A stretch of 20,187 nt of DNA from a virus. A program made the translations under genes and the position numbers. The stretch is taken from positions 1 to 20,187 of the IMG/VR virus record IMGVR_UViG_3300027770_000316; one strand, written 5' to 3'. Within the stretch, counting starts at the first letter, position 1; every line of letters starts with the position of its first letter. This document shows positions 1,324-20,187 of this stretch, in pieces. The notes under the pieces were generated by a model. It worked only from the letters and a program-made list of their open reading frames with translations. It was not told the DNA's origin and did not search any database.

Positions 1324-1328
1324 GTTGT

Positions 1329-5237: not shown

Positions 5238-5240
5238 TAT

Positions 5241-6705: not shown

Positions 6706-6706
6706 A

Positions 6707-8169: not shown

Positions 8170-8543
8170 ATAAAAATGAATCAACTAAAGTAACCTTGGC
8201 CTACAGGCGAAGCTCGCCACATTCGGTTTTAATATATTCCCAAGGAAGCTATCGCTATAGCCAAGAACTGTTAAAAGAATTTGAGGATAGGCACGGATAC
8301 GCAATGGTAGTTGGCTTTGGTGGGTGTGGTTCCAGCTACCCAAAGCTTGCGGATGAGTCTGGGCATTATTGGATGACACATTTTCATCACGCTGTAGTAC
8401 GAGACAAGGCCGATCCAATTGAACTACACAAAACACTATCTGCAATTCCAGAGTACAGAAATTTATGCGCTGGGGATATTCCATTCTTGAATCAATACGA
8501 AGAATGCGACAACAGGGAGTACGACATTTTAGCGGGGTGCTAA
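8166..8543 (+). CDS. Hypothetical protein
   Basis: A 125-residue protein starting in an ATGA overlap. It has tyrosine-rich beta segments (SVLIYSQGSYRYSQELLKEF) and a GFGGCGSSYPKL loop. A HYWMTHFHHAVVRD stretch (HFHH) could bind a metal. The C-terminus has three cysteines. I cannot place it in a family. It ends the accessory operon and is followed by the structured-RNA candidate. Confidence 0.65.
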   Translation: MNKNESTKVTLAYRRSSPHSVLIYSQGSYRYSQELLKEFEDRHGYAMVVGFGGCGSSYPKLADESGHYWMTHFHHAVVRDKADPIELHKTLSAIPEYRNLCAGDIPFLNQYEECDNREYDILAGC

Positions 8544-8546
8544 CCT

Positions 8547-8622
8547 AACTGGCGTTGTGGTACGCAGGGAGATCCTGCGGCTGGTCCTTCTGTGTGTCGA
8601 ACCACTTGAATCAGAGCCAGTT
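8547..8622 (+). ncRNA. Candidate structured RNA / leader of the primase gene
   Basis: The 87-base gap between genes folds on paper into nested helices. AACTGGC (8547-8553) pairs perfectly with GCCAGTT (8616-8622) to close the element. GTGGT (8557-8561) pairs with ACCAC (8601-8605). CGCAGG (8563-8568) pairs with CCTGCG (8574-8579) around a 5-base loop. The closing stem ends nine bases before the ATG of the primase at 8631, so it could act as a leader controlling that gene. The size is tRNA-like, but no D- or T-arm or anticodon arm fits and no CCA follows. It is not any named RNA class I recognise. Confidence 0.45.
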
Positions 8623-8630
8623 TGAATTTT

Positions 8631-9572
8631 ATGAACAACCAACGCATCGCTGAATCAATAGTCGGGGAAGTCGATTGGCAGTCCGAGAATCACGGACTAT
8701 GCAAATGCCCAGGGGAAGCGGCGCACACCAGCCACACCAGAGTCAGGGATACCACAGTCTTTATTGACGGAGCACCTACTATCTTCTGCTGGCACTCTTC
8801 CTGCACGCCATACCGCGATGAGGCCAACCGCAAGCTTCGCCGTGCTATCTCCAGCGACCCGCTGTACAAGTCAGCAGTTAAGGATTCCTTAATGACTCAA
8901 GGTAGCGGTTCGATACCAAGGGCCTTGGTAATCCAGAAAGATCCAGAGTTGGAAGTACTAGACCGCATTAAGACTATCGCAGAGTCAAACAAGCAACGCT
9001 ACCTCACGCACTATAATTGGGACCCAGCCGATATGTTCGAGGAATCGCCTACCCCTATACCAGACGAGCCACAGGCGCAATACGAGGAAATGTTGTCGCT
9101 ATTCAAACCAGATGACATCGTATGGATAGGTGGGGTCAAGGATAGTGGGAATCACCCACTTCACTTCAAGACCGCAAGCGAGTGGATGCAGACACCGCCC
9201 ATCAGTCAGTTTACGACTGCTGGGGTGTTTGCGGCTGGTACTATCAGCCGAGCCAATGAGAATGTTATCTCGCGCCGTTACCTAGTCATAGAGTCGGACA
9301 CGCTGACTAAGCCAGAGATGGGCGCGGTGTTCCAACTGATGCGTGATCTATTTAAGATGAAGTTGTACGCGGTTGTAGATACTGCTGGAAAGAGTTTGCA
9401 TGGTTGGTTAGAGATGCCCAAGCAAGAGTGGTTTGATCAATTAAAAGCTTTCCTTATCCCGCTAGGGTGCGACCCTGCTACCTTCAAACCAAGTCAGCCA
9501 GTACGGATGCCAGGTGTAAAAAGAAACGACAAAACGCAGAGCTTGTTATGGTTCTGCCAAGGAGGAAAGTAA
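8631..9572 (+). CDS. Phage primase: zinc finger plus AEP-type primase domain
   Basis: A 313-residue protein (ATG 8631; an in-frame TTG at 8622 is the alternative). The N-terminus has a probable zinc site: C24, C26 and histidines in AAHTSH, then FCWHSSC with C53, H55, C58. The C-terminal half contains YLVIESD (217-223, acidic metal-binding motif I), then VVDTAGKSLHGWLEMP with SLHGW at 255-259 (the S-x-H motif) and VRMPGVKR (291-298). These are features of archaeo-eukaryotic-type primases in phages. It is paired with the helicase directly downstream (one base between genes). It would make primers for phage DNA replication. The exact family name is uncertain; the domain order is clear. Confidence 0.7.
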   Translation: MNNQRIAESIVGEVDWQSENHGLCKCPGEAAHTSHTRVRDTTVFIDGAPTIFCWHSSCTPYRDEANRKLRRAISSDPLYKSAVKDSLMTQGSGSIPRALVIQKDPELEVLDRIKTIAESNKQRYLTHYNWDPADMFEESPTPIPDEPQAQYEEMLSLFKPDDIVWIGGVKDSGNHPLHFKTASEWMQTPPISQFTTAGVFAAGTISRANENVISRRYLVIESDTLTKPEMGAVFQLMRDLFKMKLYAVVDTAGKSLHGWLEMPKQEWFDQLKAFLIPLGCDPATFKPSQPVRMPGVKRNDKTQSLLWFCQGGK

Positions 9573-9573
9573 G

Positions 9574-10590
9574 ATGATTGAACCAGCAGTAGCCCTAGGA
9601 ATTAAACCTAAAACAGATGAGTGGCCGCCGATTAAACGCTATGATGAATTGATGGTAGAGAAGCTACCAGAGCCAGAGATTCTAATAGCTGGCATCTTGC
9701 ATCAAGGGGGCAAGTTGTTACTAGGTGGGGGCAGTAAGTCTTTTAAATCTTGGGCACTCATTGATCTCGCCTTGTCGATACAGGTTGGCGGGTTGTGGTG
9801 GGGGCAGCAGTGTAAGCGTGCCAAGGTTTTATTCATAAATTTCGAGATTCAAGAGTGGAGTTTCCGTAATCGTCTAGCTGATGTAGTCAAAGCAAAGAAT
9901 CTAACCCAAGATCAAGTGGCAGACTTCGATGTGTGGACGCTGAGAGGTTACGCTGCTGACTTGACAACTATCAGACCTATCATCGAGAAGCAGATCGAAG
10001 GTAAAGGCTACCAGGCGATCATTCTTGACCCAAATTATATGCTTATGGGTGATCGTGATGAGAACAACGCTGGAGACATGGCAAATTTGATGAATGAGTT
10101 TGAGGTACTGGCAGTTCGACACAATCTTAGTGTCATTTTGTCACATCATTTCGGCAAGGGAAACAAGAGTAATTCAGAGTCTATTGACAGATTCAGTGGC
10201 AGTGGTGTCTTTGCACGCAATCCAGACTCGCTTGTAGTCCTTACGGCACACGAAGAGGATGAGCGGAGCTTTACCTGTGAGGTCACGCTCCGTAACTTCC
10301 CACCATTAGACAGCTTTGTGGTGCAATGGCACTATCCACTATTCTTGACCAACTACTGCCTCAATCCAGACAATCTAAAGAAGGCTGGAGCGCACAAAGC
10401 GATCAACGATTCGGACCTACTAAAAGCAATGGGAATTAAGTCTTGGGTAGCAAATGACTTGGTCAAAACGATGGCAGAAAAGATGGAGGTTTCGGACAGG
10501 ACTGTTTATCGCTACATTAAGAGGCTGACAAACGCTGGCAAGATCGTGATAGACAACGGCTTCTATTCTGCCAACCAAGCTACTTTCTAG
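9574..10590 (+). CDS. RepA-like AAA/RecA-fold replicative helicase
   Basis: A 338-residue protein behind a perfect AAGGAGG. The Walker A region is LGGGSKSFKSW (50-60), a variant seen in phage RepA/AAA_25 proteins in which the usual glycine before the lysine is replaced. FINFEIQ (88-94, E91) is followed by the Walker B strand AIILDP (148-153) and LSHHFGKGN (189-197). SGSGVFARNPDSLVVL follows. The C-terminal 80 residues read as a winged helix (VANDLVKTMAEKMEVSDRTV, then YRYIKRLTNAGKIV). It would unwind or load at the origin with the primase upstream. The tandem repeats directly after the gene may be its binding site. Confidence 0.75.
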   Translation: MIEPAVALGIKPKTDEWPPIKRYDELMVEKLPEPEILIAGILHQGGKLLLGGGSKSFKSWALIDLALSIQVGGLWWGQQCKRAKVLFINFEIQEWSFRNRLADVVKAKNLTQDQVADFDVWTLRGYAADLTTIRPIIEKQIEGKGYQAIILDPNYMLMGDRDENNAGDMANLMNEFEVLAVRHNLSVILSHHFGKGNKSNSESIDRFSGSGVFARNPDSLVVLTAHEEDERSFTCEVTLRNFPPLDSFVVQWHYPLFLTNYCLNPDNLKKAGAHKAINDSDLLKAMGIKSWVANDLVKTMAEKMEVSDRTVYRYIKRLTNAGKIVIDNGFYSANQATF

Positions 10591-10593
10591 TCG

Positions 10594-10632
10594 CTGACAA
10601 AGGTACTGCCAAAGGCACTGACATCTAAGGTA
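10594..10632 (+). repeat. Three tandem iteron-like repeats
   Basis: Immediately after the helicase stop come CTGACAAAGGTA (10594-10605), CTGCCAAAGGCA (10606-10617) and a longer variant CTGACATCTAAGGTA (10618-10632). A further TGACAG follows. The consensus is CTGnCAAAGGYA. Short tandem repeats next to a replication helicase are typical of origin iterons, but three imperfect units is a small number. The role is inferred from position. Confidence 0.45.
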
Positions 10633-10678
10633 TGACAGACCCCTATAGTACATATAGAAATACAATCTGCATAGGAGA

Positions 10679-10711
10679 GGGGGAAAGGCTCCCTGAATCC
10701 GCCTTCCCCCC
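10679..10711 (+). other. GC-rich hairpin in the intergenic region
   Basis: GGGGGAAAGGC (10679-10689) pairs with GCCTTCCCCCC (10701-10711) with one mismatch, around an 11-base loop. No T-run follows directly (a run of A lies 30 bases later), so it is not a standard intrinsic terminator for the plus strand. It sits between the iteron-like repeats and the next small gene and may be part of an origin or an RNA structure. The rest of 10591-10788 is non-coding on both strands as far as I can judge. Confidence 0.4.
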
Positions 10712-10788
10712 AGCCGATCCGAAGCAGCCTTGAGCGTGAATTAAAAAAAACAAATGGCATCGTGGTCGGCGTGTGATAAAGTACGCAA

Positions 10789-10923
10789 ATGAATAAATTA
10801 AAACCTGGTTTGTATGCAAACATAAACGCTCGCCGTAAGGCGGGAACTAGCCGTCCTAAATCGCAAAGCACCATCAAGCCTAAGATCTGGCGTATGATGA
10901 AAGCTAAGAAGGGTACGTTCTGA
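10789..10923 (+). CDS. Small basic phage protein (GLYANI type)
   Basis: A 44-residue protein reading MNKLKPGLYANINARRKAGT, then a lysine-rich end with MMKAKKGTF. The 'KPGLYANI-A-R' opening is a familiar start of tiny basic phage proteins that lie near structural genes; their function is unknown. There is no Shine-Dalgarno sequence. An extended -10-like TGATAAAGT (10774-10782) ends seven bases before the ATG, so a leaderless message is possible. Too short for routine gene calling. Confidence 0.7.
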   Translation: MNKLKPGLYANINARRKAGTSRPKSQSTIKPKIWRMMKAKKGTF

Positions 10924-10946
10924 ACCAGGATAGGGATGAGCTAAAG

Positions 10947-11198
10947 ATGGCTCACAAGTTTATCAGTCTCCTTCAACTCGAGAATGCGAAGCTGCATGGA
11001 GTTGTGAGACTGCTGGGCGGGTTAGTGGACGATATGGAGGCTAACTGCTCCTATGAGGTGTTTGAGGCGCAGTGGGAAGGGTTGACCAGCTACGTTAAGG
11101 GCTTGTCAGAGTTCTTTTGCACACACCAGAAGGCCCTACAATCGCTCCAGGAGGCTTGCCCTGCGGTTTGGGACCAAGATGAAGTGGATGAAACGTGA
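10947..11198 (+). CDS. Hypothetical helical protein
   Basis: An 83-residue acidic protein with ATG 10947 and GGGATGAG upstream. A rarer in-frame CTG at 10920 would overlap the previous stop (CTGA) and add nine residues. It is helical (LLQLENAKLHGVVRLLGGLV), with one FFCTH motif and a C-terminal acidic tail DQDEVDET. No family recognised. It is coupled to the next gene by GTGA. Confidence 0.65.
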   Translation: MAHKFISLLQLENAKLHGVVRLLGGLVDDMEANCSYEVFEAQWEGLTSYVKGLSEFFCTHQKALQSLQEACPAVWDQDEVDET

Positions 11199-11431
11199 GT
11201 ACCCAAGATTTACCCTGTAACAGCCCTAGGCGTACCCCTGGGGGACCGAAAAAGTTCGTAGTTCGAGCCTGCCAAGGCGGTGAGAGCAAGACAATCCGCT
11301 ACGGAGACCCCAAGATGACCATTAAGAAGGGCAATCCAGACCGCAGGCGTAGCTTTCGGGCTAGGCACAAATGCGACAGCAATCCGCCGAGTAAACTAAC
11401 CCCACGTTTTTGGTCATGTCGAAATTGGTGA
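11195..11431 (+). CDS. Conserved phage protein with KFVV-RYGDP-RARHKCD-YWSC-W motif chain
   Basis: A 78-residue basic protein starting at GTG in a GTGA overlap. The chain KKFVVRACQGGESKTIRYGD, then KKGNPDRRRSFRARHKCD, then TPRFWSCRNW is a well-conserved pattern. It is seen in phages and some large DNA viruses, usually annotated hypothetical. It looks like a compact, possibly capsid- or DNA-associated domain; the function is not established to my knowledge. The final tryptophan is typical of the family, so the gene is complete. Confidence 0.7.
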   Translation: MSTQDLPCNSPRRTPGGPKKFVVRACQGGESKTIRYGDPKMTIKKGNPDRRRSFRARHKCDSNPPSKLTPRFWSCRNW

Positions 11432-11577
11432 CAACTATGCCTAAAAAAACACGCCACAATGCCCCGCAATCGAGCAAGGATGCCACTAGAAAGCGTCTTA
11501 AAGCGAAAGCTGATGCAGTGGACGTTCCAAACAGACCTCTAGGCAACCGAGCGTGCTGTTGCCGTATCGGTCGCTAG
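11428..11577 (+). CDS. Small basic hypothetical protein
   Basis: A 49-residue frame from GTG 11428 (GTGA overlap), or 46 residues from ATG 11437. It starts MPKKTRHNAPQSSKDATRKR and ends RACCCRIGR with three consecutive cysteines. It is strongly basic. It is the last plus-strand gene before the minus-strand island. No homology recognised; the call rests on the overlap style and the small basic composition shared with neighbours. Confidence 0.5.
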   Translation: MTTMPKKTRHNAPQSSKDATRKRLKAKADAVDVPNRPLGNRACCCRIGR

Positions 11578-11631
11578 GCTTCCGTTTGACGCTCCCGCTT
11601 ATACGTTCCTTGTACCGCCCTTATGCGTCTA

Positions 11632-11838
11632 TTAAACGTCTTTAATGCGACTGCGCTTCCGTTTGGCTTCTGGCCTGCCGTTCTCTACCCGCCACTTTTG
11701 CCAACGCTCCCGCTGGGTCTGCGCTACCATTTGGTAATGCTCCCGCGACATCTTGCGAGCTTTGGTAATTCCTGTAACGCTCCCGCCCTTACGCCCAATG
11801 GACGCAAAGTACTCCCGAATGATCTGTTCCTTGTCCAT
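11632..11838 (-). CDS. Small basic protein with GRKGG motif
   Basis: A 68-residue minus-strand protein reading MDKEQIIREYFASIGRKGGS, then VTGITKARKMSREHYQ and a very basic C-terminus. The 'YF-x-x-IGRKGG ... KAR' opening is common to small phage and plasmid proteins, possibly nucleic-acid binding. The start has only a moderate GGGAAGG about ten bases upstream. It is the last gene of the minus-strand island and converges on the plus-strand genes with a 54-base gap and no obvious terminator. Confidence 0.7.
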   Translation of the reverse strand: MDKEQIIREYFASIGRKGGSVTGITKARKMSREHYQMVAQTQRERWQKWRVENGRPEAKRKRSRIKDV

Positions 11839-11842
11839 AAAG

Positions 11843-11950
11843 TTAACCTTCCCGCGAGAATATCTGTGCTTCCGTTTTTACATACCCCTTATGCATCTCG
11901 CCTGCATAAAGGCTACGCTGCCGTTTGAATAGCCCACAAGTGTGAGCCAT
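11843..11950 (-). CDS. Very small hypothetical ORF
   Basis: A 35-residue frame reading MAHTCGLFKRQRSLYAGEMH and ending SREG. It stops four bases before the start of the 68-residue gene, the tight spacing expected for a real gene here. It has only a weak ribosome site (GGCGGGAAT) and contains two copies of the dispersed repeat, so it may instead be non-coding. Tentative. Confidence 0.3.
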   Translation of the reverse strand: MAHTCGLFKRQRSLYAGEMHKGYVKTEAQIFSREG

Positions 11951-11999
11951 TGCAAGACATTCCCGCCAAGGCTGGAACTTGGGCGGGGATAGTATCGCC

Positions 12000-12215
12000 T
12001 TAGGCTTGCTCTGCCATTAAATAATCTTCTTGAGCGTTTTGAATCCAAGTTTCAACGTCAACTATTCTTTCACACCAAAAGTTATTGTCTTCCATTGCTT
12101 CCTTCCCGCTCATATATCCAAGGCCACAAAAGGCAGAATCAAACTCTGCCCACTTCCCTCCAGTTGGCTCGCTGGTGTCAAGTTGGTGCATGTACGTTGG
12201 GTTGTTTTTTTTCAT
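12000..12215 (-). CDS. Hypothetical acidic protein
   Basis: A 71-residue minus-strand protein with AAAGGAAA upstream of its ATG (12213-12215). It reads MKKNNPTYMHQLDTSEPTGG, then AEFDSAFCGLGYMSGKEAMEDN, and ends with an acidic helix. Its pI is clearly acidic, which is unusual beside basic neighbours; small acidic phage proteins can be DNA mimics, but there is no further support. No family recognised. Confidence 0.65.
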   Translation of the reverse strand: MKKNNPTYMHQLDTSEPTGGKWAEFDSAFCGLGYMSGKEAMEDNNFWCERIVDVETWIQNAQEDYLMAEQA

Positions 12216-12299
12216 ATGTGTTTTTCCTTTATAGTTCTGCGCCGCCGTTTATGGCTGCGCTTCCGTTTGTTAGGTTAATCCTATCGGATCTTACCTTTG

Positions 12300-12322
12300 C
12301 TTCCCCCGTGCTAAAGGGGAAG
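12300..12322. other. Perfect 7-bp hairpin in a small-gene gap
   Basis: CTTCCCC (12300-12306) and GGGGAAG (12316-12322) form a perfect 7-bp stem with a 9-base loop. It lies just after the stop of the 32-residue minus-strand gene. There is no T-run on either strand, so it is at best a weak terminator or an RNA-processing structure. The remaining 12216-12299 holds only repeat copies. Confidence 0.35.
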
Positions 12323-12333
12323 ACAAGGGAAGA

Positions 12334-12432
12334 CTACTTGCGCGGCTTGTCCCGTGGCGTGCAAAGCCATACAAAAAGGCATAGCGCGGTTGCGTGCATC
12401 ATGCCTAATGCGTACATGGCGGGGTCATTCAT
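12334..12432 (-). CDS. Tiny single-pass membrane protein
   Basis: A 32-residue minus-strand frame: MNDPAMYALGMMHATALCLF, then VWLCTPRDKPRK. It has one hydrophobic helix and a basic tail. A strong GAGGAGGTG lies five to six bases before the ATG, and the ATG overlaps the upstream stop (ATGA). Both points argue it is translated. Too short for gene callers. Confidence 0.6.
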   Translation of the reverse strand: MNDPAMYALGMMHATALCLFVWLCTPRDKPRK

Positions 12433-12605
12433 TTTTTCACCTCCTCAGCGCGGATAGGGTTCCAATCCCAACTTCCCTCGTGCAGTTCCGTCCACTCTCC
12501 GCCGTCAATCTTGTCCGCCTTGTCCATCGCGTCTTCTTCATTCTCCGCCATTACTTCAACTTCATATTCCAATAGGCTTTGTGCTATTACTTTGAATTTT
12601 TTCAT
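12429..12605 (-). CDS. Conserved small phage/plasmid protein (MAENEEDAMDKA type)
   Basis: A 58-residue minus-strand protein reading MKKFKVIAQSLLEYEVEVMA, then ENEEDAMDKADKIDGGEW and a tail GSWDWNPIRAEEVKK. This beta-strand/EExA helix/beta layout is a frequent small domain in phages and plasmids whose role is unknown. The frame is open far upstream (to 12803), but that extension crosses two other genes and is low-complexity shadow, so I chose 12605. Confidence 0.75.
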   Translation of the reverse strand: MKKFKVIAQSLLEYEVEVMAENEEDAMDKADKIDGGEWTELHEGSWDWNPIRAEEVKK

Positions 12606-12762
12606 TTTGTTTGTCTCTTTCTTTTTTGATCTCCGCGCTCCATTCCATCCCATTCCGCACTGCCCAACGTAGGGCGGTAGCGTATGAGAGGAAACGCGCG
12701 AAGAATTGACCGCGTGAATTGTACACCGCGAAGTAGTGCCTAGTGCTTTCCATAAGCGACAA
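12562..12762 (-). CDS. Hypothetical protein
   Basis: A 66-residue minus-strand protein (M4 at 12753 is an alternative start). It reads SLMESTRHYFAVYNSRGQFF, then ARFLSYATALRWAVRNGMEW and a charged end. The YFAVYNSRGQFFARF part looks like a genuine beta-hairpin domain. It overlaps the Gp88 gene by 23 bases at its start and the 58-residue gene by 44 bases at its end, more than is usual here. That lowers certainty. Confidence 0.55.
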   Translation of the reverse strand: MSLMESTRHYFAVYNSRGQFFARFLSYATALRWAVRNGMEWSAEIKKERDKQNEKIQSNSTKPIGI

Positions 12763-13372
12763 CCTCCAATTTTTTGTCCCAACATGCGCGACATGTCAGG
12801 CACTTGTTACCCTGCCTTGAACTAGGGCAAGTCTCCCCACTTGTGACTACAGTTGACACTTGCACACCCAACCGCCGTGCTAGTGCCAATGGTGCCACGC
12901 CGTCAATCATATGAGCGGACAGGCGAATGGTGAGATTCGCGGGAACTTTGCCGCCGTTGTTAAGGTATGACTGCACGACTCCCGCTTCCCTTGTTGGCAA
13001 CCAGTGCCGCACGTTGGGAGTTTTTTCGCATACTTCAATTATCTTTTTTAGATGGTTTGAGTTTTGCAAGTCTCCCGCATCGTGCCATCTAAAGAATGCG
13101 TTTCCCTCTGCTTCTATTAAGTAAACCATGCTTTCAACCCAATCTTCGCGCCGTAGTGAACGCAAACGCCGCGCCAAGGCAGCGCGAACGGCAGGGAACC
13201 CATAGTTCCCCTTCATCGCGTAGCACTTGGAGCAAACCGATCCTTCTACCTTGCGAAGCTTGCCGCCAACCTTGCAAAGTGATGCAGGGATGGAGTAAGC
13301 AGGGCAAGGCATTTTACTTGGGCGAGAAAATCCGCCTCCTGTGGATGTTGTCGCGTGTTCGAAGGTCATCAT
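12740..13372 (-). CDS. Gp88-family cysteine-rich protein
   Basis: A 210-residue minus-strand protein, the largest gene of the island, with GGGAGG before its ATG pair (13372 or 13369). The chain SKMPCPAYSIPASLCKVGGK, then EGSVCSKCYAMKGNYGFPAV, then FFRWHDAGDLQ, then HWLPTREA, and at the end CPSSRQGNKCLTCRACW, is the hallmark of Gene product 88 from mycobacteriophages. That family is found across phages and plasmids. Multiple cysteines suggest metal or iron-sulfur binding. The function is not established. The complete motif set is present. Confidence 0.85.
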   Translation of the reverse strand: MMTFEHATTSTGGGFSRPSKMPCPAYSIPASLCKVGGKLRKVEGSVCSKCYAMKGNYGFPAVRAALARRLRSLRREDWVESMVYLIEAEGNAFFRWHDAGDLQNSNHLKKIIEVCEKTPNVRHWLPTREAGVVQSYLNNGGKVPANLTIRLSAHMIDGVAPLALARRLGVQVSTVVTSGETCPSSRQGNKCLTCRACWDKKLEVVAYGKH

Positions 13373-13375
13373 GAT

Positions 13376-13669
13376 TTAATTCCTCCCTTCCATCGTCACT
13401 AGGACGCTATGCTGCCAAGCGTTTTCCTTAATCCATTCCATGATCGTTTCCGCGTGGTATGACGTTGTCATGTCATGGAGATGATTAAGAAGGCGGCTCT
13501 CATGGATGCGCCCGAATATGTTCGAATGGATAACCGCTCCACTCTTCCACTCTTTCACTAGTACCTTTATTGTTGTGCCTTGGGGAAAATACGTTCCCTC
13601 GCTAACTTTGATTTGTATTATTCCGCCAATGCATTCTTCACCTATCTTCCAAGTTTTAGTTTTGTTCAT
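13376..13669 (-). CDS. Hypothetical protein
   Basis: A 97-residue minus-strand protein with AAAGGAAA before the ATG. It reads MNKTKTWKIGEECIGGIIQI, has a beta-rich N-terminal half (IKVSEGTYFPQGTTIKVLVKEW) and ends in MEWIKENAWQHSVLVTMEGRN. It stops three bases before the Gp88 start and carries that gene's ribosome site in its last codons. No family recognised. Confidence 0.7.
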   Translation of the reverse strand: MNKTKTWKIGEECIGGIIQIKVSEGTYFPQGTTIKVLVKEWKSGAVIHSNIFGRIHESRLLNHLHDMTTSYHAETIMEWIKENAWQHSVLVTMEGRN

Positions 13670-13693
13670 TGTGTGTAGTTTCCTTTTTTGTTT

Positions 13694-13774
13694 TTAGTTT
13701 TTACCGAAGTAGCCAAGCGCCATAAATAGAACGCATGGCGAGAGGAATAGGATTGTTATTGCTAGGTCAATCAT
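13694..13774 (-). CDS. Tiny membrane peptide
   Basis: A 26-residue minus-strand frame: MIDLAITILFLSPCVLFMAL, then GYFGKN. It is a single hydrophobic helix. Its ATG overlaps the upstream stop (ATGA) and GGAGGG lies upstream at suitable distance. The size and build match the other tiny membrane proteins of the window. A membrane peptide of unknown role; low length keeps confidence moderate. Confidence 0.5.
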   Translation of the reverse strand: MIDLAITILFLSPCVLFMALGYFGKN

Positions 13775-14055
13775 TTTCCATTCCCTCCATCTTGCGTTAC
13801 AAAGTAAGTTGCAAACCTTCCTGAAAAAGTCATGCGCTTCCATCCAAAAACTTTTTTGAAATGATTTTGCGCCCTTCTTAGGCTTCTTGCGTTTACGCTC
13901 AATACAGGAGAAATGATAGTTTGTGGAAAATCACCGAATCCATATTCGGAAGTATTTTCGCTTTTATAGCTTCTTCTATATAGAGTATATGGTTGAACTA
14001 CATTTTCACGAGCGTCTTTAACCGCGCCCGTTTCGGTGTGTGTTGTGTTATTCAT
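13771..14055 (-). CDS. Hypothetical protein, first gene of the minus-strand island
   Basis: A 94-residue minus-strand protein from ATG 14055. A TTG at 14070 is open upstream but lies in the promoter -10, so it is rejected. It reads MNNTTHTETGAVKDARENVV, then YTLYRRSYKSENTSEYGFGD, then a basic region NARSLRRAQNHFKKVFGW and a beta end FATYFVTQ. No family recognised. The predicted transcript start falls on or next to the ATG, implying a leaderless message. Confidence 0.65.
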   Translation of the reverse strand: MNNTTHTETGAVKDARENVVQPYTLYRRSYKSENTSEYGFGDFPQTIISPVLSVNARSLRRAQNHFKKVFGWKRMTFSGRFATYFVTQDGGNGK

Positions 14056-14061
14056 ATGGTC

Positions 14062-14089
14062 ATAATGCAAGCCTATAGCATCTTGTCAA
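14062..14089 (-). promoter_or_regulatory. Sigma70-like promoter for the minus-strand island
   Basis: Read on the minus strand, a perfect TTGACA (14089-14084) is followed after 16 bases by CATTAT (14067-14062), four of six to consensus. A start site about seven bases on would fall at 14055, the ATG of the first island gene. No ribosome site lies between them, so the message may be leaderless. Confidence 0.55.
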
Positions 14090-14112
14090 ACTTTATTTTG
14101 ATATATTTTAAT
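14083..14112 (+). promoter_or_regulatory. Sigma70-like promoter for the packaging operon
   Basis: On the plus strand, TTGTCA (14083-14088) is followed after 18 bases by TTTAAT (14107-14112, five of six to consensus) in an AT-rich stretch. The predicted start near 14119 leaves a leader of about seven bases before the terminase ATG at 14126. The -35 box occupies the same bases as the -35 of the divergent promoter. Confidence 0.5.
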
Positions 14113-14125
14113 GTAAGGTAAACGC

Positions 14126-14737
14126 ATGGAAGAAAGCATTGTTGAGAAGGGAAAGAATGGGCGCGATATATTCACGAAGGAATTGGCGGATGAGATAGTC
14201 GCGGCCTGTGGCTCAGGCTTTACGATTGAGAAAGCGGGCGCGTTGGTTGGTGTGAATGCAAACACGATAAAAACTTGGGCAAGTAGAAAGCCTGATTTTG
14301 CGCGTAGGGTGGAAACTGCCAGAAAAAAGCACGAGCTTTCCTTACTGCGGGATATAGAGCTAGCAGGGGAGAAGTCATGGCAAGCCAAAGCTTGGATGGC
14401 TGAAAGAATCTACAATCACGCACAACCCTCTGCACGTCTGTCAGTTACGCAAGATGTCACCCACGGCATCTCCTCGAACTTGGCCAGCTTGTTGGCGGGG
14501 ATTGCGGTGAAGAAGAAGGCGCAAGTGATTGACCTCCAGGATGTTAAAGACAAACCCAAGATCAATAGTTTATACAATAGCAATTGTGCGACAAGTGGTA
14601 CGCAAGATGTTGTCACTACAACACAATTAAAAATCTGTAAGCCTCGCAAGGTAGCCATGAAGAGAAGAAAACCTAGGGCTGAGAGCCTAGCCAAGTACAC
14701 CACCACGCCACCCGCCACGCCCCCAGCCCCCGCTTGA
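14126..14737 (+). CDS. terS: Terminase small subunit
   Basis: A 203-residue protein. Residues about 15-60 form a helix-turn-helix (ELADEIVAACGSGFTIEKAG, then GVNANTIKTWASRKPDF). They are followed by FARRVETARKKHE and LAGEKSWQAKAWMAERI, the standard layout of phage small terminases. The C-terminal half is low-complexity, lysine/arginine- then proline-rich (ending PPATPPAPA), longer than many relatives. It would recognise the packaging site and recruit the large subunit encoded next. An AAGG lies seven bases before the ATG. Confidence 0.8.
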   Translation: MEESIVEKGKNGRDIFTKELADEIVAACGSGFTIEKAGALVGVNANTIKTWASRKPDFARRVETARKKHELSLLRDIELAGEKSWQAKAWMAERIYNHAQPSARLSVTQDVTHGISSNLASLLAGIAVKKKAQVIDLQDVKDKPKINSLYNSNCATSGTQDVVTTTQLKICKPRKVAMKRRKPRAESLAKYTTTPPATPPAPA

Positions 14738-14798
14738 TACACATAACCCCCCCTAAATTATTGTGGCTCAAAACAAAAAGAAGTCTTAGCACACCACC

Positions 14799-16223
14799 AT
14801 GCCAAAGCCACCCAAGCGTAGCCAAGAAGAGGCGTTAGAAGACCTTGGCAAACCAGCCAATTTCGCATCTAACGCATTGGGCATCAACCTTTATGACTGG
14901 CAACGGAAGGTGTTAACCGATTTACACCCCAGAGACTCGCGCGTAGCATTGCGTGCAGCCAACGGCTCTGGCAAGACCAGCACAGTTATTTCGTCCATTT
15001 TGATATGGCACGCCCTCGTTTACCCGCGCTCAATTGCTGTAACAACGGCAGGCGTGTACCGACAAGTTGAAAGTCAGTTGTGGCCTAGCCTTCGCCATCA
15101 CATTTCTAAACTCGGTGGGGCATGGGAGGTGACATCTGGCGAGATCCGTTACCTCCACCCCAACGGCAACACATCGCGCATTATCGGGTACTCAGCCACC
15201 GATGCAGGGCGTGCAGAAGGCTGGCACGCTGAAGACCACGACAACCATCCTCTGCTCATGGTAGTGGACGAAGCCAAGACTGTAGCCGACCCTCTATTCG
15301 AGGCTATCAGCCGTTGCCAACCAACCAGACTGTTGATCGCATCCAGCCCAGGCGGGTCTAGCGGCGCGTTCTACCGCGCCTTCACCAAGGAGGCTGATAT
15401 GTGGAAGAAGCACTCTGTCACAGCGTTTGACTGCCCCCACATCACACAGGTACAGATTGATGAGGTTATCCAGCGTTACGGCGAGAAACACCCGCTGACA
15501 CGCTCCATGATATACGGAGAGTTCGTTGACATAGGTTCCGAGAGCCTTGTCATCAGCCTAAACCAACTCCAGCATTGCCTAACTACTCCACCAGCATTCA
15601 AGCCTGGCACTAGGGTAGCAGGCGTGGACTTTGCAGCAGGCGGGGATTGCAACGTGCTAGCAATAAGAGATGGCAATAAGGTTCTACCATTCCTAGCCTG
15701 GCGTGATCGTGACACGATGGCAGCGGTAGGGCGGTTTATCGTAGAGTTTAAGAAGGCTGGGCTAGAGCCTAACAACATATTTGCCGATGCGAGTGGGTTG
15801 GGGATGCCTATGTGCGATGCGCTGGCAGAGGCAGGCTGGGAGGTCAACCGAGTCAACTTCGGATCTACTGCCTACGATGCTGATGCCTATACCAATCGGT
15901 CTGCTGAGATGTGGTATGGCATGGCAAAGAAGATTGATGGGGCTGAGATCATCCTGCCAGAAGACGATGACCTGACTGCACAACTAACTTGCAGGAAAAG
16001 CCTGGTCAACTCCAAAGGCAAGCTAGGCGTGGAATCTAAGGATTCGATGCGTTCTAGGGGTCTTGCCTCACCAGATAAGGCAGACGCACTTGCTTTATGC
16101 TTGGATGGTGGCAACATGAGGTTCGACTTGACCTTTCAGATCGAAAGGCCAACTTGGAAATCACTTCAAGCCATGATGGAGTTTCACGACCCTGTTATGG
16201 CTGGGTTTGAAGCAGGAGGATAA
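14799..16223 (+). CDS. terL: Terminase large subunit (ATPase plus nuclease)
   Basis: A 474-residue protein. The ATPase motor has Walker A AANGSGKT (53-60) and Walker B LLMVVDEA (152-159; D157, E158), followed by the coupling motif ASSPGG. The RNase-H-like nuclease has GVDFAAGGD (275-283, D277), FADASG (D330) and a distal acid in DKADALAL (426-433). All catalytic positions are present. The protein packages DNA into the prohead using ATP and cuts concatemers. There is no Shine-Dalgarno sequence before the ATG, and an in-frame TAG at 14787-14789 rules out a longer start. The 61-base gap before it holds a C-run but no clear promoter. Confidence 0.92.
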   Translation: MPKPPKRSQEEALEDLGKPANFASNALGINLYDWQRKVLTDLHPRDSRVALRAANGSGKTSTVISSILIWHALVYPRSIAVTTAGVYRQVESQLWPSLRHHISKLGGAWEVTSGEIRYLHPNGNTSRIIGYSATDAGRAEGWHAEDHDNHPLLMVVDEAKTVADPLFEAISRCQPTRLLIASSPGGSSGAFYRAFTKEADMWKKHSVTAFDCPHITQVQIDEVIQRYGEKHPLTRSMIYGEFVDIGSESLVISLNQLQHCLTTPPAFKPGTRVAGVDFAAGGDCNVLAIRDGNKVLPFLAWRDRDTMAAVGRFIVEFKKAGLEPNNIFADASGLGMPMCDALAEAGWEVNRVNFGSTAYDADAYTNRSAEMWYGMAKKIDGAEIILPEDDDLTAQLTCRKSLVNSKGKLGVESKDSMRSRGLASPDKADALALCLDGGNMRFDLTFQIERPTWKSLQAMMEFHDPVMAGFEAGG

Positions 16224-16227
16224 AACT

Positions 16228-16398
16228 ATGAATATATGGAACTGGATCACATCGAATTGGACAGACGTAGTTGCTGCGGTTGGCGGCATTGTATTGGCTG
16301 CTCGTATTATTGTTAAGCTCACCCCCACTCCAGCGGATGACTCGATCTTGGAAAAGGTCGTTGCATTTCTGAAGACTGTCGGGTTAAACATCAAATAA
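16228..16398 (+). CDS. Holin-like small membrane protein
   Basis: A 56-residue protein with AGGAGG upstream. It reads MNIWNWITSNWTDVVAAVGG, then IVLAARIIVKLTPTPADDSI and a helical end. It has one hydrophobic segment (about 12-32), and the KLTPTPADD turn is typical of a small phage membrane family often called putative holins. It is followed by the spanin-like pair, which supports a lysis role. An upstream ATG in the same frame (16207) lies inside terL and was rejected. Confidence 0.6.
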   Translation: MNIWNWITSNWTDVVAAVGGIVLAARIIVKLTPTPADDSILEKVVAFLKTVGLNIK

Positions 16399-16404
16399 AT
16401 TTAA

Positions 16405-16593
16405 GTGATCGGTGCGATACTTCAAATCATCGCATCAGTCCTTCGCCTCATACCAGGTTGGTATGAGAAGCGTGTTGACAAGAACGCTACCGAGTGGAAA
16501 GATAATCGTGAGGTTATTGATCGCGAACTTGGTTCTGTTGCTTGGTGGGTGCGCGACAACAAGTCCGATAACGAACACATCGGGGGCAGTTGA
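16405..16593 (+). CDS. Putative i-spanin-like protein, GTG start
   Basis: A 62-residue protein starting MIGAILQIIASVLRLIPGW, a short hydrophobic N-terminus, then a charged helical region (EKRVDKNATEWKDNREVIDR). No ribosome site is seen before the GTG. An i-spanin normally has an N-terminal membrane helix and a periplasmic coiled coil; this one is short, so the call depends mostly on the embedded lipoprotein gene in another frame. Confidence 0.5.
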   Translation: MIGAILQIIASVLRLIPGWYEKRVDKNATEWKDNREVIDRELGSVAWWVRDNKSDNEHIGGS

Positions 16594-16723
16594 GTCATTA
16601 ATGAAAGACGATAACTACCCTGCGGTTCGTACTGCCTCTCCAGCCATTCGTGCCTGGGCGAAGAAGGCACTTAACTATGTCAATGATCTTTCTTATGAAC
16701 TTCAAACGGAGCGCAACAAATGA
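16508..16723 (+). CDS. Putative o-spanin (Rz1-like) lipoprotein embedded in another frame
   Basis: A 71-residue frame starting at GTG 16508, with GGAAAGA about six bases upstream. The N-terminus is a classic lipoprotein signal: R2, a hydrophobic run LLIANLVLLL, and a lipobox LGGC with the lipidated cysteine at residue 15. ATTSPITNTSG follows. The gene begins inside the preceding 62-residue gene in a different frame and continues past its end, the arrangement known for Rz/Rz1 pairs. It would sit in the outer membrane and help disrupt it at lysis, implying a Gram-negative host. Its stop overlaps the portal ATG. Confidence 0.65.
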   Translation: MRLLIANLVLLLGGCATTSPITNTSGAVESLMKDDNYPAVRTASPAIRAWAKKALNYVNDLSYELQTERNK

Positions 16724-18600
16724 ACGCTAAAGATACACGCAGGAATAGTTATTACACACGGATTATTGACTCGCTCAACCAGCGTGAGACTTGGGAGAAT
16801 CGTCAACGGCTGTTCTACCAGGCTCGCTATTTTGGTGTTAGGCGCAAGATTAAGCCTTGGCCTACAGCAGCCGACCTACACGTTCAGTTAATTGACTCTG
16901 CTATCGAGAAGCTAAAACCTTCTTTCGTCAATAGCGCAATCGGTAACGACATCCTTTCTAGCTTCGTTCCTATGCGCCAGCAGTTGGCTCCGCTGACAGT
17001 ATCAGCCGAGCGTTGGTTTGATTACCAGATGCGTGAGCGTACCAACTTCCAGAAAGAGATTGTTTCAGTCATCGACAACATCCTGCTCTACGGGCGCGGA
17101 GTAGCTAAAGTAATCTGGAACGAGGACAAGAAGCGTATTGACTTTGAAGCTATTGATCCATTCCATATCATCGTTCCTTCCTACACAAAGGAGTTTAAAG
17201 ATGCCGATTTCATTGTTCACATCATCTCAACAAGTGTCGATTCCTATAAGGCAAATCCGCTTTACAAGCAGGGGGACGAGTTCGTTAAAATCATTTCGGG
17301 TAAACCCTCGAAATCAGTGGGCTTACGAAGTGAGATTCAGGACGAAATTTACAGGCGCGAAGGAATTACTCAAGAATCTGACAATGATCGTATTGTCCTT
17401 TGGGAAATGTATACGCCGTCCGAAGATGGATGGAAGGTTGAAACCTACAGTCCTCTGGTTATAGACGAAGACATTCGCAAACCTTTCACGCTACCCTACC
17501 GACATGGTGAACCACCTTTTGTAGATTTCCCCTATGAGGTCACAGGGGGCGGTTGGTATAGCCCTCGCGGAGTTGCAGAAATTCTCCTCCCTGGCGAGAA
17601 TCTATTAAATAAGCTCAAGAACTCGTTGAGTGATTACGTTGAGCTAGCCAACCGACCCGTCTTTGAAGCACAGAATCCTATCTCGCTAAACACAGCGAAC
17701 TTGAAAATGCAGCCTGGTCAGATCCTGCCACAAGGATTAAAGCCAGTTCAGTTCAGCCAGCCTCCATTCGACTTCCAGCGTTTGATGCTTGAAGAGCGTC
17801 AACTTGCTGAACAGCGTATGGGCAACCCAGACTTTGGAGCAGGCTCGCAGTATAACGCTGGGGATAGAAAGACTGCTACCGAGATTCAAGCGTTGCAGTC
17901 GCAGTCAGCATCCTCTGGCGATCTTCGTAATCGTATGTTTAGGATGGGTCTATCCCACCTATTCAAACAATGCTGGTCACTCTACACGCAGTACAACAAG
18001 AAAGACTTGATGTATCGGTATGCGGAGGAAACTGGTTCGATGCCACCAGACGGCATCCATGATGAGTATTCCATTGAACCAAAGGGTGGACTAGACTTTA
18101 TTAACCGCCAGTTTGCGTTGCAGAAATCAGTTAGCCGTATGGCTATGTTCCAAAACAATCCTTTCATCAACCAAGGCGAACTGGTTAAATCGGTGCTTGA
18201 ACAAGACGATCCATCGCTGGTCCGTAGGCTCTACCAAGATCCTAACGCTGCCTCTGGGGATCAGGCTGAAGATCAAGCGACTGAAATTGCGACCATGCTC
18301 ACCACAGGCTTCCCTGTCGCTATCAAGCCTAGCGATGACCACAAGGCGCATATATCAGTTCTCTTCGCGTTTAACCAAGCTGCTCAACAGCGGCAACAAC
18401 AGGTCGATCAGAGCGCAATGCAAGTTCTGATGGCTCATCTCCAACAGCATTTAGCAGCGTTGGAGAAGATTGATCCCAATACATCCCGCGCAATTCAGAA
18501 ACAGCTTCGAGATGCAGGCAAGGCTCAAGTGCAACAACAGGGGCAACAACTGCCACCTGAAGCGATGCAAGGCCAAGCACCAGCACCGATGCCTGCTTGA
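16720..18600 (+). CDS. Portal protein
   Basis: A 626-residue protein starting in an ATGA overlap. The first part reads RIIDSLNQRETWENRQRLFY and VSVIDNILLYGRGVAKVIW, and a later PHG-type segment (PYRHGEPPFVDFPYEV) precedes YSPRGVAEILLPGENLLNKL and YNAGDRKTATEIQAL. These are the usual landmarks of portal proteins, which form the dodecameric ring at the head vertex. The C-terminus is glutamine-rich (QQRQQQVDQSAM to the end) with a Pro/Ala tail. The length fits short-tailed and related phages. It lies two bases into the spanin gene's end and before the scaffold region. Confidence 0.8.
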   Translation: MNAKDTRRNSYYTRIIDSLNQRETWENRQRLFYQARYFGVRRKIKPWPTAADLHVQLIDSAIEKLKPSFVNSAIGNDILSSFVPMRQQLAPLTVSAERWFDYQMRERTNFQKEIVSVIDNILLYGRGVAKVIWNEDKKRIDFEAIDPFHIIVPSYTKEFKDADFIVHIISTSVDSYKANPLYKQGDEFVKIISGKPSKSVGLRSEIQDEIYRREGITQESDNDRIVLWEMYTPSEDGWKVETYSPLVIDEDIRKPFTLPYRHGEPPFVDFPYEVTGGGWYSPRGVAEILLPGENLLNKLKNSLSDYVELANRPVFEAQNPISLNTANLKMQPGQILPQGLKPVQFSQPPFDFQRLMLEERQLAEQRMGNPDFGAGSQYNAGDRKTATEIQALQSQSASSGDLRNRMFRMGLSHLFKQCWSLYTQYNKKDLMYRYAEETGSMPPDGIHDEYSIEPKGGLDFINRQFALQKSVSRMAMFQNNPFINQGELVKSVLEQDDPSLVRRLYQDPNAASGDQAEDQATEIATMLTTGFPVAIKPSDDHKAHISVLFAFNQAAQQRQQQVDQSAMQVLMAHLQQHLAALEKIDPNTSRAIQKQLRDAGKAQVQQQGQQLPPEAMQGQAPAPMPA

Positions 18601-19127
18601 GAGTACCAGTAATGCGAGATGCCTTCCAAGCGGAAGGCTTAACAAAACTTTGTGAGTGGGCGAATGAGGCGGGTGCAAATAATAAGGCGGTTGAGATTGG
18701 ATCTTACAGCGGGGAAGGTACAGTGGTTATTGCTAAACATTTCAAGGAGGTTATGGCGGTTGATCCTTGGATGAATGGGTACGACATTAACGATGTAGCA
18801 AGCCAGCAATGCCCGATGAAGTTTGTTTTCGAGGCTTTTAAAGAACGTGCCACTCCACTTGGCAATGTTTTGCATAACAGAAGTAAAAGCCTAGATGCCT
18901 TACAGTTCTTTAGGGATGACGAGCTAGACTTTATCTACATAGACGGAGATCATCGCTACGAAGGCGTGCTTGCAGATCTGAATGGATGGAAGCCTAAGCT
19001 TAGGTCTGGCGGGATAATGGCTGGGCATGATTGGAGTTTTAAGTCAGTACAAAAGGCTTTGGTTGAGGTATTTAAGGATAAGGAAGCAGTTCTATTTCAG
19101 GGGGATTCATGGGGTATAAAGCTATGA
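18597..19127 (+). CDS. Class I SAM-dependent methyltransferase (Methyltransf_24-like)
   Basis: A 176-residue protein starting at TTG in a TTGA overlap with the portal gene (ATG 18612 is the alternative). Motif I is VEIGSYSGEGT (32-42), the acidic residue after strand 2 is D56 (AVDPW), and FIYIDGDHRYEGVLADL (112-127) with SGGIMAGHDW (137-146) completes the fold. This is the 'IDGDHxYExVxxDL' group, which methylates small molecules or sugars. It has no DNA-methyltransferase (N/D)PPY motif, so DNA methylation is not indicated. Its position between portal and scaffold genes is unusual. Confidence 0.75.
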   Translation: MRVPVMRDAFQAEGLTKLCEWANEAGANNKAVEIGSYSGEGTVVIAKHFKEVMAVDPWMNGYDINDVASQQCPMKFVFEAFKERATPLGNVLHNRSKSLDALQFFRDDELDFIYIDGDHRYEGVLADLNGWKPKLRSGGIMAGHDWSFKSVQKALVEVFKDKEAVLFQGDSWGIKL

Positions 19128-19447
19128 GAAAACTAAAGGCAGCACTGGCGTTCATACGCGACCAAGCATGGATTAACGAACCTAAGTGGGAAGATGAGGA
19201 CGAGAAGGCGTGGACAGGCTTCTTATCTACACCTACTGGCAAGAAACTTAGTCTTATACTTTTGAACCTAACCCTACGCCAAAATGCATCTGCTGTAATG
19301 AAAAAGCATGATGTACTTGCGGATGCGTGTGGTTATGCTAAAGGATTCAGAGGGTGTGTTGCGACATTGGAATCGCTCGCATCTCAAAAACTTAACTCCG
19401 CCGTCCCAGGCTATGGGGATGGATCGGATGAACCAGTAGCCGATTAA
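19124..19447 (+). CDS. Conserved phage hypothetical protein near the portal
   Basis: A 107-residue protein with its start at ATG 19124 (ATGA overlap); an ATG at 19109 lies inside the methyltransferase gene. It reads MRKLKAALAFIRDQAWINEP, then FLSTPTGKKLSLILLNLTLR, then KGFRGCVATLESLASQ. The 'TPxGKKL...L...LRQNA...GxxxGFRxCxAxLESL' pattern recurs in phage genes between portal and capsid; the role is unknown. A putative structural or assembly factor. Confidence 0.65.
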   Translation: MRKLKAALAFIRDQAWINEPKWEDEDEKAWTGFLSTPTGKKLSLILLNLTLRQNASAVMKKHDVLADACGYAKGFRGCVATLESLASQKLNSAVPGYGDGSDEPVAD

Positions 19448-19496
19448 CCTTTAGGTAGATTGACTCCCTACCAACAAGTGTAAAGAAAGGGTCAAA

Positions 19497-20187
19497 ATGG
19501 CAGATTCAACGGAAGTTACTGAACTGGATATGTTGAAACTAGCGGCAGCAGCCGATGCAGGATTGGAAACAGTCCCGCAGGATGAGCCGAAAGTGGAAGC
19601 AAAAACAGAGGTCGCTTCAAGCGGAGATACCGAGCAGAAACCCGCGCCTGCTGGAGAAGCCGAAACAAACAAACGTGGAGCCTCGGATGAGGTTCCAGCC
19701 TCTAAGGAGAAATCCAAAGAAGCAAGTTCTTTAACAGACCAACCTTCAGAAAACAACTCGGAATCGGCTTCCGAACAAAAGAAGCCTACCCGATATGAGA
19801 AGGCAAAGAGCAGACTCGAAAAAGAGTGGGACGATGTTAGAGAAGAAAAAGCAAGACTCAAATCAGAGCGTGAATCAATCGAACAGGCCAAAGCCCAACG
19901 AGAGACTTCGCAATCTGGTTCTGAGGTGCAGAAAACTGGAAACCGCCGCTTTAGTGCGGAGGATTACAGGGAAGCGGCAAAAAGCTATCGTGACGAAGGC
20001 CGTGATGATCTTGCAAAACTCGCAGAACAAAAGTCCACTGAAATCGAATCTGAGGATCGCAAAGAGTTTGAGCAAAAAACTCAAACTGAATTAAAGTCAG
20101 CATGGGATAAAAACCTACTTGAAGAAGTAGATTCTAACCCAGACCTTAAAGATTCTAAAAGCCAACTCTACAAAGCAGTATCTGAGA
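19497..20187 (+). CDS. Scaffold-like protein (3' truncated by window)
   Basis: An open frame from ATG 19497 (AAAGAAAGG upstream) to the right edge, 230 codons without a stop. The first 130 residues are low-complexity Glu/Ala/Ser/Lys (MADSTEVTELDMLKLAAAAD onward). A coiled-coil-like charged region follows (RYEKAKSRLEKEWDDV, then ERESIEQAKAQRE). Acidic, helical proteins after the portal gene are typically capsid scaffolds. The minus-strand frame across it is a shadow. The capsid gene would be expected beyond the window. Confidence 0.7.
   Translation, partial: MADSTEVTELDMLKLAAAADAGLETVPQDEPKVEAKTEVASSGDTEQKPAPAGEAETNKRGASDEVPASKEKSKEASSLTDQPSENNSESASEQKKPTRYEKAKSRLEKEWDDVREEKARLKSERESIEQAKAQRETSQSGSEVQKTGNRRFSAEDYREAAKSYRDEGRDDLAKLAEQKSTEIESEDRKEFEQKTQTELKSAWDKNLLEEVDSNPDLKDSKSQLYKAVSE

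Follow-up and report, generated by a model that had tools for sequence, protein, structure and literature searches.

What starts transcription and translation at the point where two oppositely oriented gene blocks of a phage meet? The DNA analysed here (the window) is a 20,187-bp IMG/VR virus record whose open reading frame list has the rightward genes stopping near 11.2-11.6 kb and a leftward accessory island running from 14055 down to about 11.6 kb. To the right of the island, rightward genes follow in the order terminase small subunit (TerS, 14126), terminase large subunit (TerL, 14799) and SU10-type portal (16720). An earlier note on this DNA had placed divergent promoters between the island and TerS, with a single common -35, TTGTCAA, starts at or near both start codons, two nearly leaderless messages and a switch between the two gene blocks. 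The genes at issue are the following.

13376..13669, minus strand: second island gene (MNKTKTWKIGE...), with its own ATG and a Shine-Dalgarno (-5.6)
13771..14055, minus strand: first island gene, 94 residues, predicted leaderless; leader MNNTTHTETGAVKDAR joined to body ENVVQPYTLYRR...
14126..14737, plus strand: TerS, which opens the packaging operon (phrog_4102, E 1.3e-12)
14799..16223, plus strand: TerL (phrog_2, E 7.4e-28)

Gene order, relatives and host

The body of the first island gene in the window matches phrog_25600, annotated as of unknown function (E 2.1e-05). A lambdoid immunity switch was considered and rejected, since the two facing genes encode TerS and a protein of unknown function rather than divergent repressors. 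Further into the island lie a GP88 family protein (12740-13372, minus strand; PF17338, E 1.1e-30) and a gene at 12429-12803 (minus strand) whose real start may be internal and whose residues 58-97 weakly match phrog_1307, 'RNA polymerase inhibitor' (E 0.00045).

The comparison drew on 287 relatives with a TerS match, of which 277 were scored and 119 kept after near-identical loci, and loci with less than 110 nt upstream of TerS, had been dropped; because the relatives share descent, the cells of their alignments are non-independent events. Most genes that a crude ORF caller predicted in ten long relatives (34-38 kb) are rightward; the leftward ones cluster just before TerS, apart from a few short ones scattered elsewhere. 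Among named phages we found no close DNA relatives of 12500-15500, and those ranked top for TerL were three Akkermansia phages at 36-39% identity. In the first of these, Chambord (a partial genome), the genes preceding TerS lie on the same strand, as do those preceding TerL in H4. Six relatives lie in bacterial genome contigs: three from one Luteolibacter pohnpeiensis strain, one from L. marinus, one from a Verrucomicrobiaceae MAG and one from a MAG titled 'bacterium isolate LLD_281 Lanier', at 39-41% identity, or 71% over 85 residues for the last. Judged from these sequences, the host of the phage family is likely to belong to the Verrucomicrobiota, and a passage in one study names Akkermansia muciniphila and another verrucomicrobial strain as Shine-Dalgarno-scarce (PMC10783764).

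In one relative, L021, the first island gene is ArdC-like (PF08401, E 3.6e-33). By N-terminal likeness, the corresponding proteins of L042, L056 and L261 resemble that of L021, and on the same ground L313 has an ArdC-like gene (950-1801, minus strand) first or early in its island. ArdC-like genes at the island front suggest a counter-defence island.

Two abutting promoters and their predicted start points

The promoter elements, as placed by comparison of the relatives, are these.

14062..14067, minus strand: -10 of the leftward promoter, CATTAT; 16-nt spacer, 6 nt to the ATG, predicted start 14055
14084..14089, minus strand: -35 of the leftward promoter, TTGACA, inside the TTGTCAA of the earlier note and kept in relatives
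14092..14097, plus strand: -35 position of the rightward promoter, TTTATT; T-rich, a poor TTGACA match in a conserved place
14114..14119, plus strand: -10 of the rightward promoter, TAAGGT; 16-nt spacer, 6 nt to the TerS ATG, predicted start about 14126

The minus promoter is kept among the 119 dereplicated relatives, and two arrangements follow it, form 1 (n=84) and form 2 (n=35), with one locus (L024) reassigned by eye from form 2, where a script had put it (83/36), to form 1. NAnnnT precedes the ATG in 84/84 form-1 loci, at 6 nt in 77 and at 7 nt in 7, and TAnnnT stands 6-7 nt upstream in 72/84, compared with 13.6% and 2.4%, respectively, at 13,314 background ATGs in 11 sequences; the window, with CATTAT, is among the 12 form-1 loci that have NAnnnT only. 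Taking the best of spacers 15-19, we found TTGACA matched at 6/6 positions in 29 of the 84 loci, at 5/6 in 25 and at 3 or 4 in the other 30, while among 3000 random sites 2 matched at 6/6 and 81 at 5/6. The minus side carries a sigma-70-type -35/-10 pair at 15-19 nt spacing that is conserved in relatives. An aSD energy of -4 or below occurs at 2/84 form-1 starts, 35/35 form-2 starts and 23% of 1100 random sites (means -1.09, -6.75 and -2.28), and the window's first island gene has -1.5. Since the -10 lies 6-7 nt before the start and a Shine-Dalgarno is almost always missing (no aSD energy ≤ -4 in 82/84), the leftward mRNA of form-1 loci is very probably leaderless. The minus half of the earlier note is upheld by these comparisons: its TTGACA (14089-14084) and CATTAT (14067-14062), 6 nt from the ATG at 14055, are present and conserved, and the leaderless geometry is supported. 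A consensus scan of 5000-20187 as a single sequence was uninformative, its 14 promoter-like sites being no more than shuffled sequence yields (18.7 +/- 4.4); it listed the minus site (10 of 12) and missed the note's plus site because it requires A at position 2 of the -10.

On the plus strand, the elements named in that note exist (TTGTCA 14083-14088 and TTTAAT 14107-14112, 18 nt apart), and TTTAAT overlaps the front of the conserved plus element. That element emerged from an alignment of 69 of 82 upstream regions after dereplication, with conservation counted over 68 (L068 skipped). Its family consensus is TTTnTT, a 16-nt gap and an extended -10 TGGTAnnnT, within a conserved block TTTnTT ... 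TATGGTAnnnT: TA is present in 68/68, G(-2) in 60/68, and T at -22, -20 and -18 in 66, 67 and 66 of 68, so that the -35 place is conserved yet unlike TTGACA, next to a conserved extended -10. This -10 lies 25 nt from TTGTCA and 7 bases downstream of TTTAAT, and the shared -35 was dropped after the alignment, the plus -35 place being the T-rich tract that adjoins the minus -35. The two places abut, 2 bp apart and with no shared bases, and the conservation of TTGTCA is explained by its belonging to the minus -35.

From the end of the plus -10 to the TerS ATG or GTG there are 5, 6 or 8 nt in 12, 21 and 21 of 69 rows, and 9 or 10 in 4. For the remaining 11 the script chose another in-frame start; in eight of them, at 15, and in two, at 0, a start codon is also present 6 nt past the -10, and L068 is cut short. 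Two overlapping readings of the -10 exist, as TATGGT and as TAnnnT, and the first would give TerS a leader of about 5 nt. We predict that the TerS mRNA is also leaderless or nearly so, its 5' end falling no more than about 5 nt from the start codon. The idea of divergent promoters with starts at or near both start codons thus survives comparison, though with neighbouring rather than common -35 elements, and of the two nearly leaderless messages the leftward one is supported by 84 form-1 relatives and the rightward one is predicted from a shifted register.

TerS could instead have a leader, its transcript coming from a more distant upstream promoter or from read-through, with TAAGGT serving as a ribosome-binding site. 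The aSD energy at the window's TerS is -3.9, where TAAGG could be a weak Shine-Dalgarno, and values go down to -8.8 in L001, L002 and L004; the family element, however, is TGGTAnnnT, often TATAAG, TAGATT or TAAAAT, which is no Shine-Dalgarno, TerS starts as a group come close to random sites (mean -2.84 against -2.28, with 23% of 118 against 23% at ≤ -4), and the gene upstream of TerS reads in the opposite direction, all of which makes this reading improbable.

A PWM for the plus promoter, trained on 115 of 119 family sites including that of the window, gave the window site 19.9, the top score in the window (an overlapping shifted site scored 14.3), and its top site was likewise the TerS one in the ten long relatives. 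A phage-wide plus promoter was rejected, the next best non-overlapping sites in the ten long relatives and the window reaching 9-16 against 20-30 at TerS. TerL starts in 83 relatives have Shine-Dalgarno energies like those of random sites (20% ≤ -4; window -0.1), perhaps reflecting translational coupling or mis-set starts. The stretches of 15/118 relatives stop 640-756 nt past the TerS start, by the C-rich TerS/TerL junction (window 14737-14800): L258, L252, L050, L306, L282, L021, L159, L243, L034, L028, L058, L053, L019, L051 and L001. Because contig ends cluster near the plus element, a cos/pac role for it was considered; candidate causes of the clustering are a physical genome end, a hard-to-sequence C-run and a conserved/variable assembly boundary.

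The start codons lie 70-77 bp apart in 75/83 form-1 loci measured and 85-89 bp apart in 8, a distance so tight that overlapping polymerase footprints are expected and exclusion is physically likely. Mutual exclusion of polymerases, and with it the proposed switch between island and packaging, is plausible on these grounds. The leftward promoter is near-consensus sigma-70, and the rightward one has a weak -35 with an extended -10; an early-left, late-right timing would fit these qualities, together with the ArdC-like first genes of L021 and the three loci like it. Sequence comparison points to a hub of divergent promoters at the place where the leftward accessory island meets the rightward packaging operon.

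A pseudoknot within the leader codons

In nearly all form-1 proteins a common N-terminus, 13-19 residues long, stands ahead of differing bodies. In the window, the leader that encodes it contains the following features.

14038..14052, minus strand: leader codons 2-6, A/C-rich (CA-repeat), from base composition
14008..14037, minus strand: H-type pseudoknot, from covariation in the alignment of 79 leaders
14037-14034 with 14024-14021, minus strand: S1, ACCG/CGGT
14033-14032, minus strand: L1, AA
14031-14025 with 14014-14008, minus strand: S2, ACGGGCG/CGCTCGT, one G-U
14020-14015, minus strand: L3, TAAAGA

Across 79 leaders, A+C makes up 0.892 of nt 4-21 against 0.51 further down, and there are 4.57 CA dinucleotides per 21 nt at the leader start against 1.07 downstream; A/C-rich first codons are not exclusive to form 1, form-2 genes having 0.732 and TerS 0.577.

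The pseudoknot itself is well supported by comparison of the leaders. The alignment, made with MAFFT blind to structure and to reading frame, holds 79 of the 84 form-1 leaders (L054, L243, L253, L289 and L306 were left out as near-identical), with S1 in columns 28-31/41-44 and S2 in columns 34-40/51-57. Over both helices, 91.0% of 820 cells are paired (97.0% for S1 and 87.5% for S2), compared with 30-37% in slid versions; there are 121 compensatory cells, against 12-47 in slid versions, and the covariation score is 0.401, against 0.06-0.11 for slid versions and 0.171 for shuffles. Taken singly, S2 reaches a covariation score of 0.494 (shuffles 0.199; slid 0.06-0.17) and contains 97 compensatory cells, and S1 reaches 0.238 (shuffles 0.122; slid 0.004-0.08) and contains 24. 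Both sides change in 10/11 pairs (S2 7/7, S1 3/4); the seven such S2 pairs were equalled by 210/500 shuffles, the other S2 measures by at most 6, and the number of pair types in S1 by 77/500. The leaders thus hold two crossing helices with covariation in each, in S1 mainly through the outer pair. That helix is nearly invariant, with 21, 2, 0 and 1 compensatory cells per pair; its outer pair is AU in 52 rows, GC in 20 and UA in 1, and the inner CCG/CGG is otherwise nearly fixed, with AGCG/CGCT (L064), ACCC/GGGT (L019) and TCCG/CGGA (L279) as rare variants. The 74 ungapped rows contain 39 distinct S2 stems, and 61 of them have S1 complete and at least 6/7 pairs of S2, the other 13 failing. RNAalifold, which cannot draw pseudoknots, recovers the inner five S2 pairs unaided. 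The family features are a mostly A-rich L3 and a conserved CGGY-N-AAAG core. Since crossing helices cannot be a DNA cruciform, selection acts on the RNA, if S1 is right.

S1 starts at nt 19, 22, 25 and 28 in 15, 44, 3 and 12 of the 74 rows, always in frame, and because the alignment was blind to frame this is separate evidence for a translated leader. The pseudoknot begins at least 19 nt from the A of the AUG in 74/74 leaders, and the first 18 nt have an MFE of 0 in 76/85 messages. Folding z-scores of nt 19-60 in 85 messages average -1.3 against mononucleotide shuffles and fall below -1 in 65%; energy alone would not have revealed the pseudoknot. Rfam 15 gave no match at the gathering threshold for the window, six form-2 loci or ten form-1 loci, and one sub-threshold match (E 0.78); no slippery heptamer, as in a frameshift signal, was noticed by eye.

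The 79 leader proteins fall into 28 body clusters (single linkage, E 1e-4, which may split short proteins too finely), and some of the bodies also exist on their own. The KTKTW body is joined to the leader in L017, L074 and L078; a further 33 listed rows, the second island gene of the window among them, have it unfused with its own ATG and, mostly, a Shine-Dalgarno. For the KTYSK body there are six fused cases among the 79 and three unfused ones (L282, L298 and L299), and the GP88 body has unfused copies and one fused case, L049, which has no pseudoknot. Unfused copies of the remaining body clusters were not found among the loci compared, where L173 (body 13) is fused and L212 is the L049 contig, so that neither counts.

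Some leaders depart from the pattern. A different hairpin of 7-8 bp lies at about the position of the pseudoknot in five of the 79 leaders (L008, L027, L295, L299 and L045, gapped in the alignment) and in the near-identical L054, L253 and L306, giving 8/84 form-1 leaders; L049 has an A/C-rich start with no stable hairpin, and L313, which is not among the 119, has yet another hairpin. The substitution of unrelated hairpins at this place speaks for a mechanical role rather than for a single sequence-specific partner. In form 2 (35/119), a 5' UTR with a hairpin and a Shine-Dalgarno precede the ATG behind the same promoter: TAnnnT occurs in the scanned promoter stretch in 29/35, and each of these 29 has one at index 32-35, the position of the majority of form-1 hexamers. 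The stems of the form-2 hairpin (e.g. L023, L029, L059, L018) seem to covary, with internal loops, as in GGGAG/CUCCC, AAUCC/GGAUU and AACUC/GAGUU.

A search of viral_contigs with a pattern of 19 fixed bases, all from the pseudoknot, found 37 matches spread over 36 stretches, 35 of which have one copy; many of these contigs were already in the relatives set, so that the matches are no fresh phage sample. All 37 have an in-frame ATG 18-30 nt upstream, and 34 face TerS at 89-151 nt. The three that do not (in L323, in L331 and the second of L332) belong to leaders at other sites; read by eye, each again has an AT-rich hexamer (TAAATT, TAACAA and TTAAAT) 6 nt before its ATG, and the cassette may move together with its own -10. 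The two leader-pseudoknot genes of L332 stand in tandem (4560 and 4430, minus strand), 130 nt apart, and the first encodes a 41-residue protein with a hydrophobic tail. A strict scan (11/11 pairs) of both strands of the window gave one match, 14037-14008, and the pseudoknot was rejected as a repeated element. Among the ten long relatives, the scan matched on the island's own strand in G002, G004 and G006 only (3/10) and on the opposite strand of the island in G010, with one match elsewhere in each of G003, G004 and G012; G005 and G007 are form-2 genomes, and 44 one-strand shuffles gave 2 matches.

The proposed role of the leader and its place among known systems

The explanation that we consider best, with a probability of roughly 0.64, is a divergent hub with two leaderless or nearly leaderless starts, from which the first accessory gene is expressed as a fusion to an in-frame A/C-rich leader with a pseudoknot. 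A near-consensus sigma-70 promoter would read left, starting at the ATG of the first island gene, and an extended -10 promoter would read right, starting no more than about 5 nt from the TerS start codon; abutting as they do, they probably interfere, with the island early and packaging late. The leftward message would consist of the AUG, about 18 mostly unstructured A/C-rich bases and the H-type pseudoknot, all in frame. The leaderless AUG and the CA-rich codons may bring in ribosomes without a Shine-Dalgarno. At 19 nt or more from the A of the AUG, and given the size of a ribosome footprint, the pseudoknot would lie just outside the initiating ribosome, where we infer that it either helps to hold the ribosome in place on the 5' AUG or shields the newly made message. 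As the element sits in codons, an accessory gene arriving in first place would become fused to it, and the hairpin UTR with its Shine-Dalgarno would be an alternative cassette behind the same promoter in 35/119. Passages in the literature on leaderless translation report that CA repeats after the start codon raise it and that structure around the start codon inhibits it (PMC9031893), and that ACA motifs act as enhancers (PMC3879156). We lean slightly towards the promoter, leaderless AUG, CA-rich codons and coding pseudoknot being a portable cassette that travels as a unit and donates about 16 codons to the first accessory gene.

The same structure might act elsewhere than in initiation. Nascent RNA of the put type makes polymerase termination-resistant, and the pseudoknot and the form-2 hairpin could in like manner act on transcription, or on RNA decay by protecting the 5' end. 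Both cassettes do place structured RNA near the predicted 5' end whatever gene comes next, but by eye they have no structure or sequence motif in common, and the form-1 element keeps frame and leaves the AUG open, as a purely transcriptional element need not; we therefore think a role of this sort rather unlikely. We judge it unlikely, too, that the pseudoknot is a translational operator which, once bound by a small ligand or by a protein of the phage or its host, silences the first island gene, after the models of phage gene-32-type autoregulation and preQ1 riboswitches. The compact H-type fold with its mostly A-rich third loop and conserved CGGY-N-AAAG core, right behind the start, would suit such a role, yet the start is left uncovered (by the distance of at least 19 nt in 74/74 leaders and the MFE of 0 in 76/85), unrelated hairpins take the same place in 8/84 leaders and in L313, and the window and ten form-1 loci match nothing in Rfam at the gathering threshold. 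That the leader is instead an N-terminal peptide signal kept for the protein's sake, with the RNA structure incidental, is nearly refuted: MNNTTHTETSAVKxxR-like N-termini do recur before bodies that blastp does not connect, but the stem residues vary while pairing is kept (SAVKAAR, GTAKDSR, EAVKAFR, SAVFVTL), both sides change in 10/11 pairs, and some bodies are found without the leader.

Returning to the hub with a fused coding leader, its promoters are ordinary in kind. In lambda, PR and PRM are back-to-back promoters close enough to interfere, and the cI message is leaderless; in the present phage family neither gene is annotated as a regulator. Divergent leaderless phage promoters are already known from the telomere phage PY54, where passages of the source describe RACE-mapped leaderless cI and cro mRNAs that start from the AUG and are read from divergent promoters in one intergenic region, the genes being lysogeny-switch repressors with an operator (PMC4488713), whereas here they are an accessory gene and TerS, one message has a coding pseudoknot, and the starts are predicted from sequence. 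Leaderless E. coli mRNAs whose translation is raised by CA repeats downstream of the start (Martin-Farmer and Janssen 1999, cited in PMC9031893) resemble the leftward message in having a 5'-terminal AUG, here predicted, followed by CA-rich codons; unlike them, the present leader is natural, family-wide and backed by a pseudoknot. The SAS/ESAS elements of cluster K mycobacteriophages are likewise conserved and tied to start codons across diverse genes, some of them being extended by an inverted repeat, but they lie upstream of the genes in many copies per genome (PMC3203893). The element found here lies inside coding sequence, with one copy in 35/36 pattern-bearing stretches. The preQ1-I and T2/T4 gene 32 structures are H-type pseudoknots with an A-rich loop 3, located in untranslated leaders. 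Ours has a like topology (S1 4 bp, L1 2 nt, S2 7 bp, no L2, mostly A-rich L3 of 6 nt) and differs in being translated, by the frame evidence. Among titles, abstract openings and some passages of the literature we found no counterpart to a covarying coding pseudoknot after a predicted leaderless start, fused to 28 unlike clusters.

The coding pseudoknot cassette is the interesting part of this locus, and would seem to be a gene starter of a new, portable kind. If this role holds, it would provide a natural route to translation start without a Shine-Dalgarno, and would account for N-termini common to unrelated phage proteins as determined by RNA, which automated annotation may mistake for protein homology. 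With two interchangeable cassettes behind one promoter, the function of each is directly testable by a swap.
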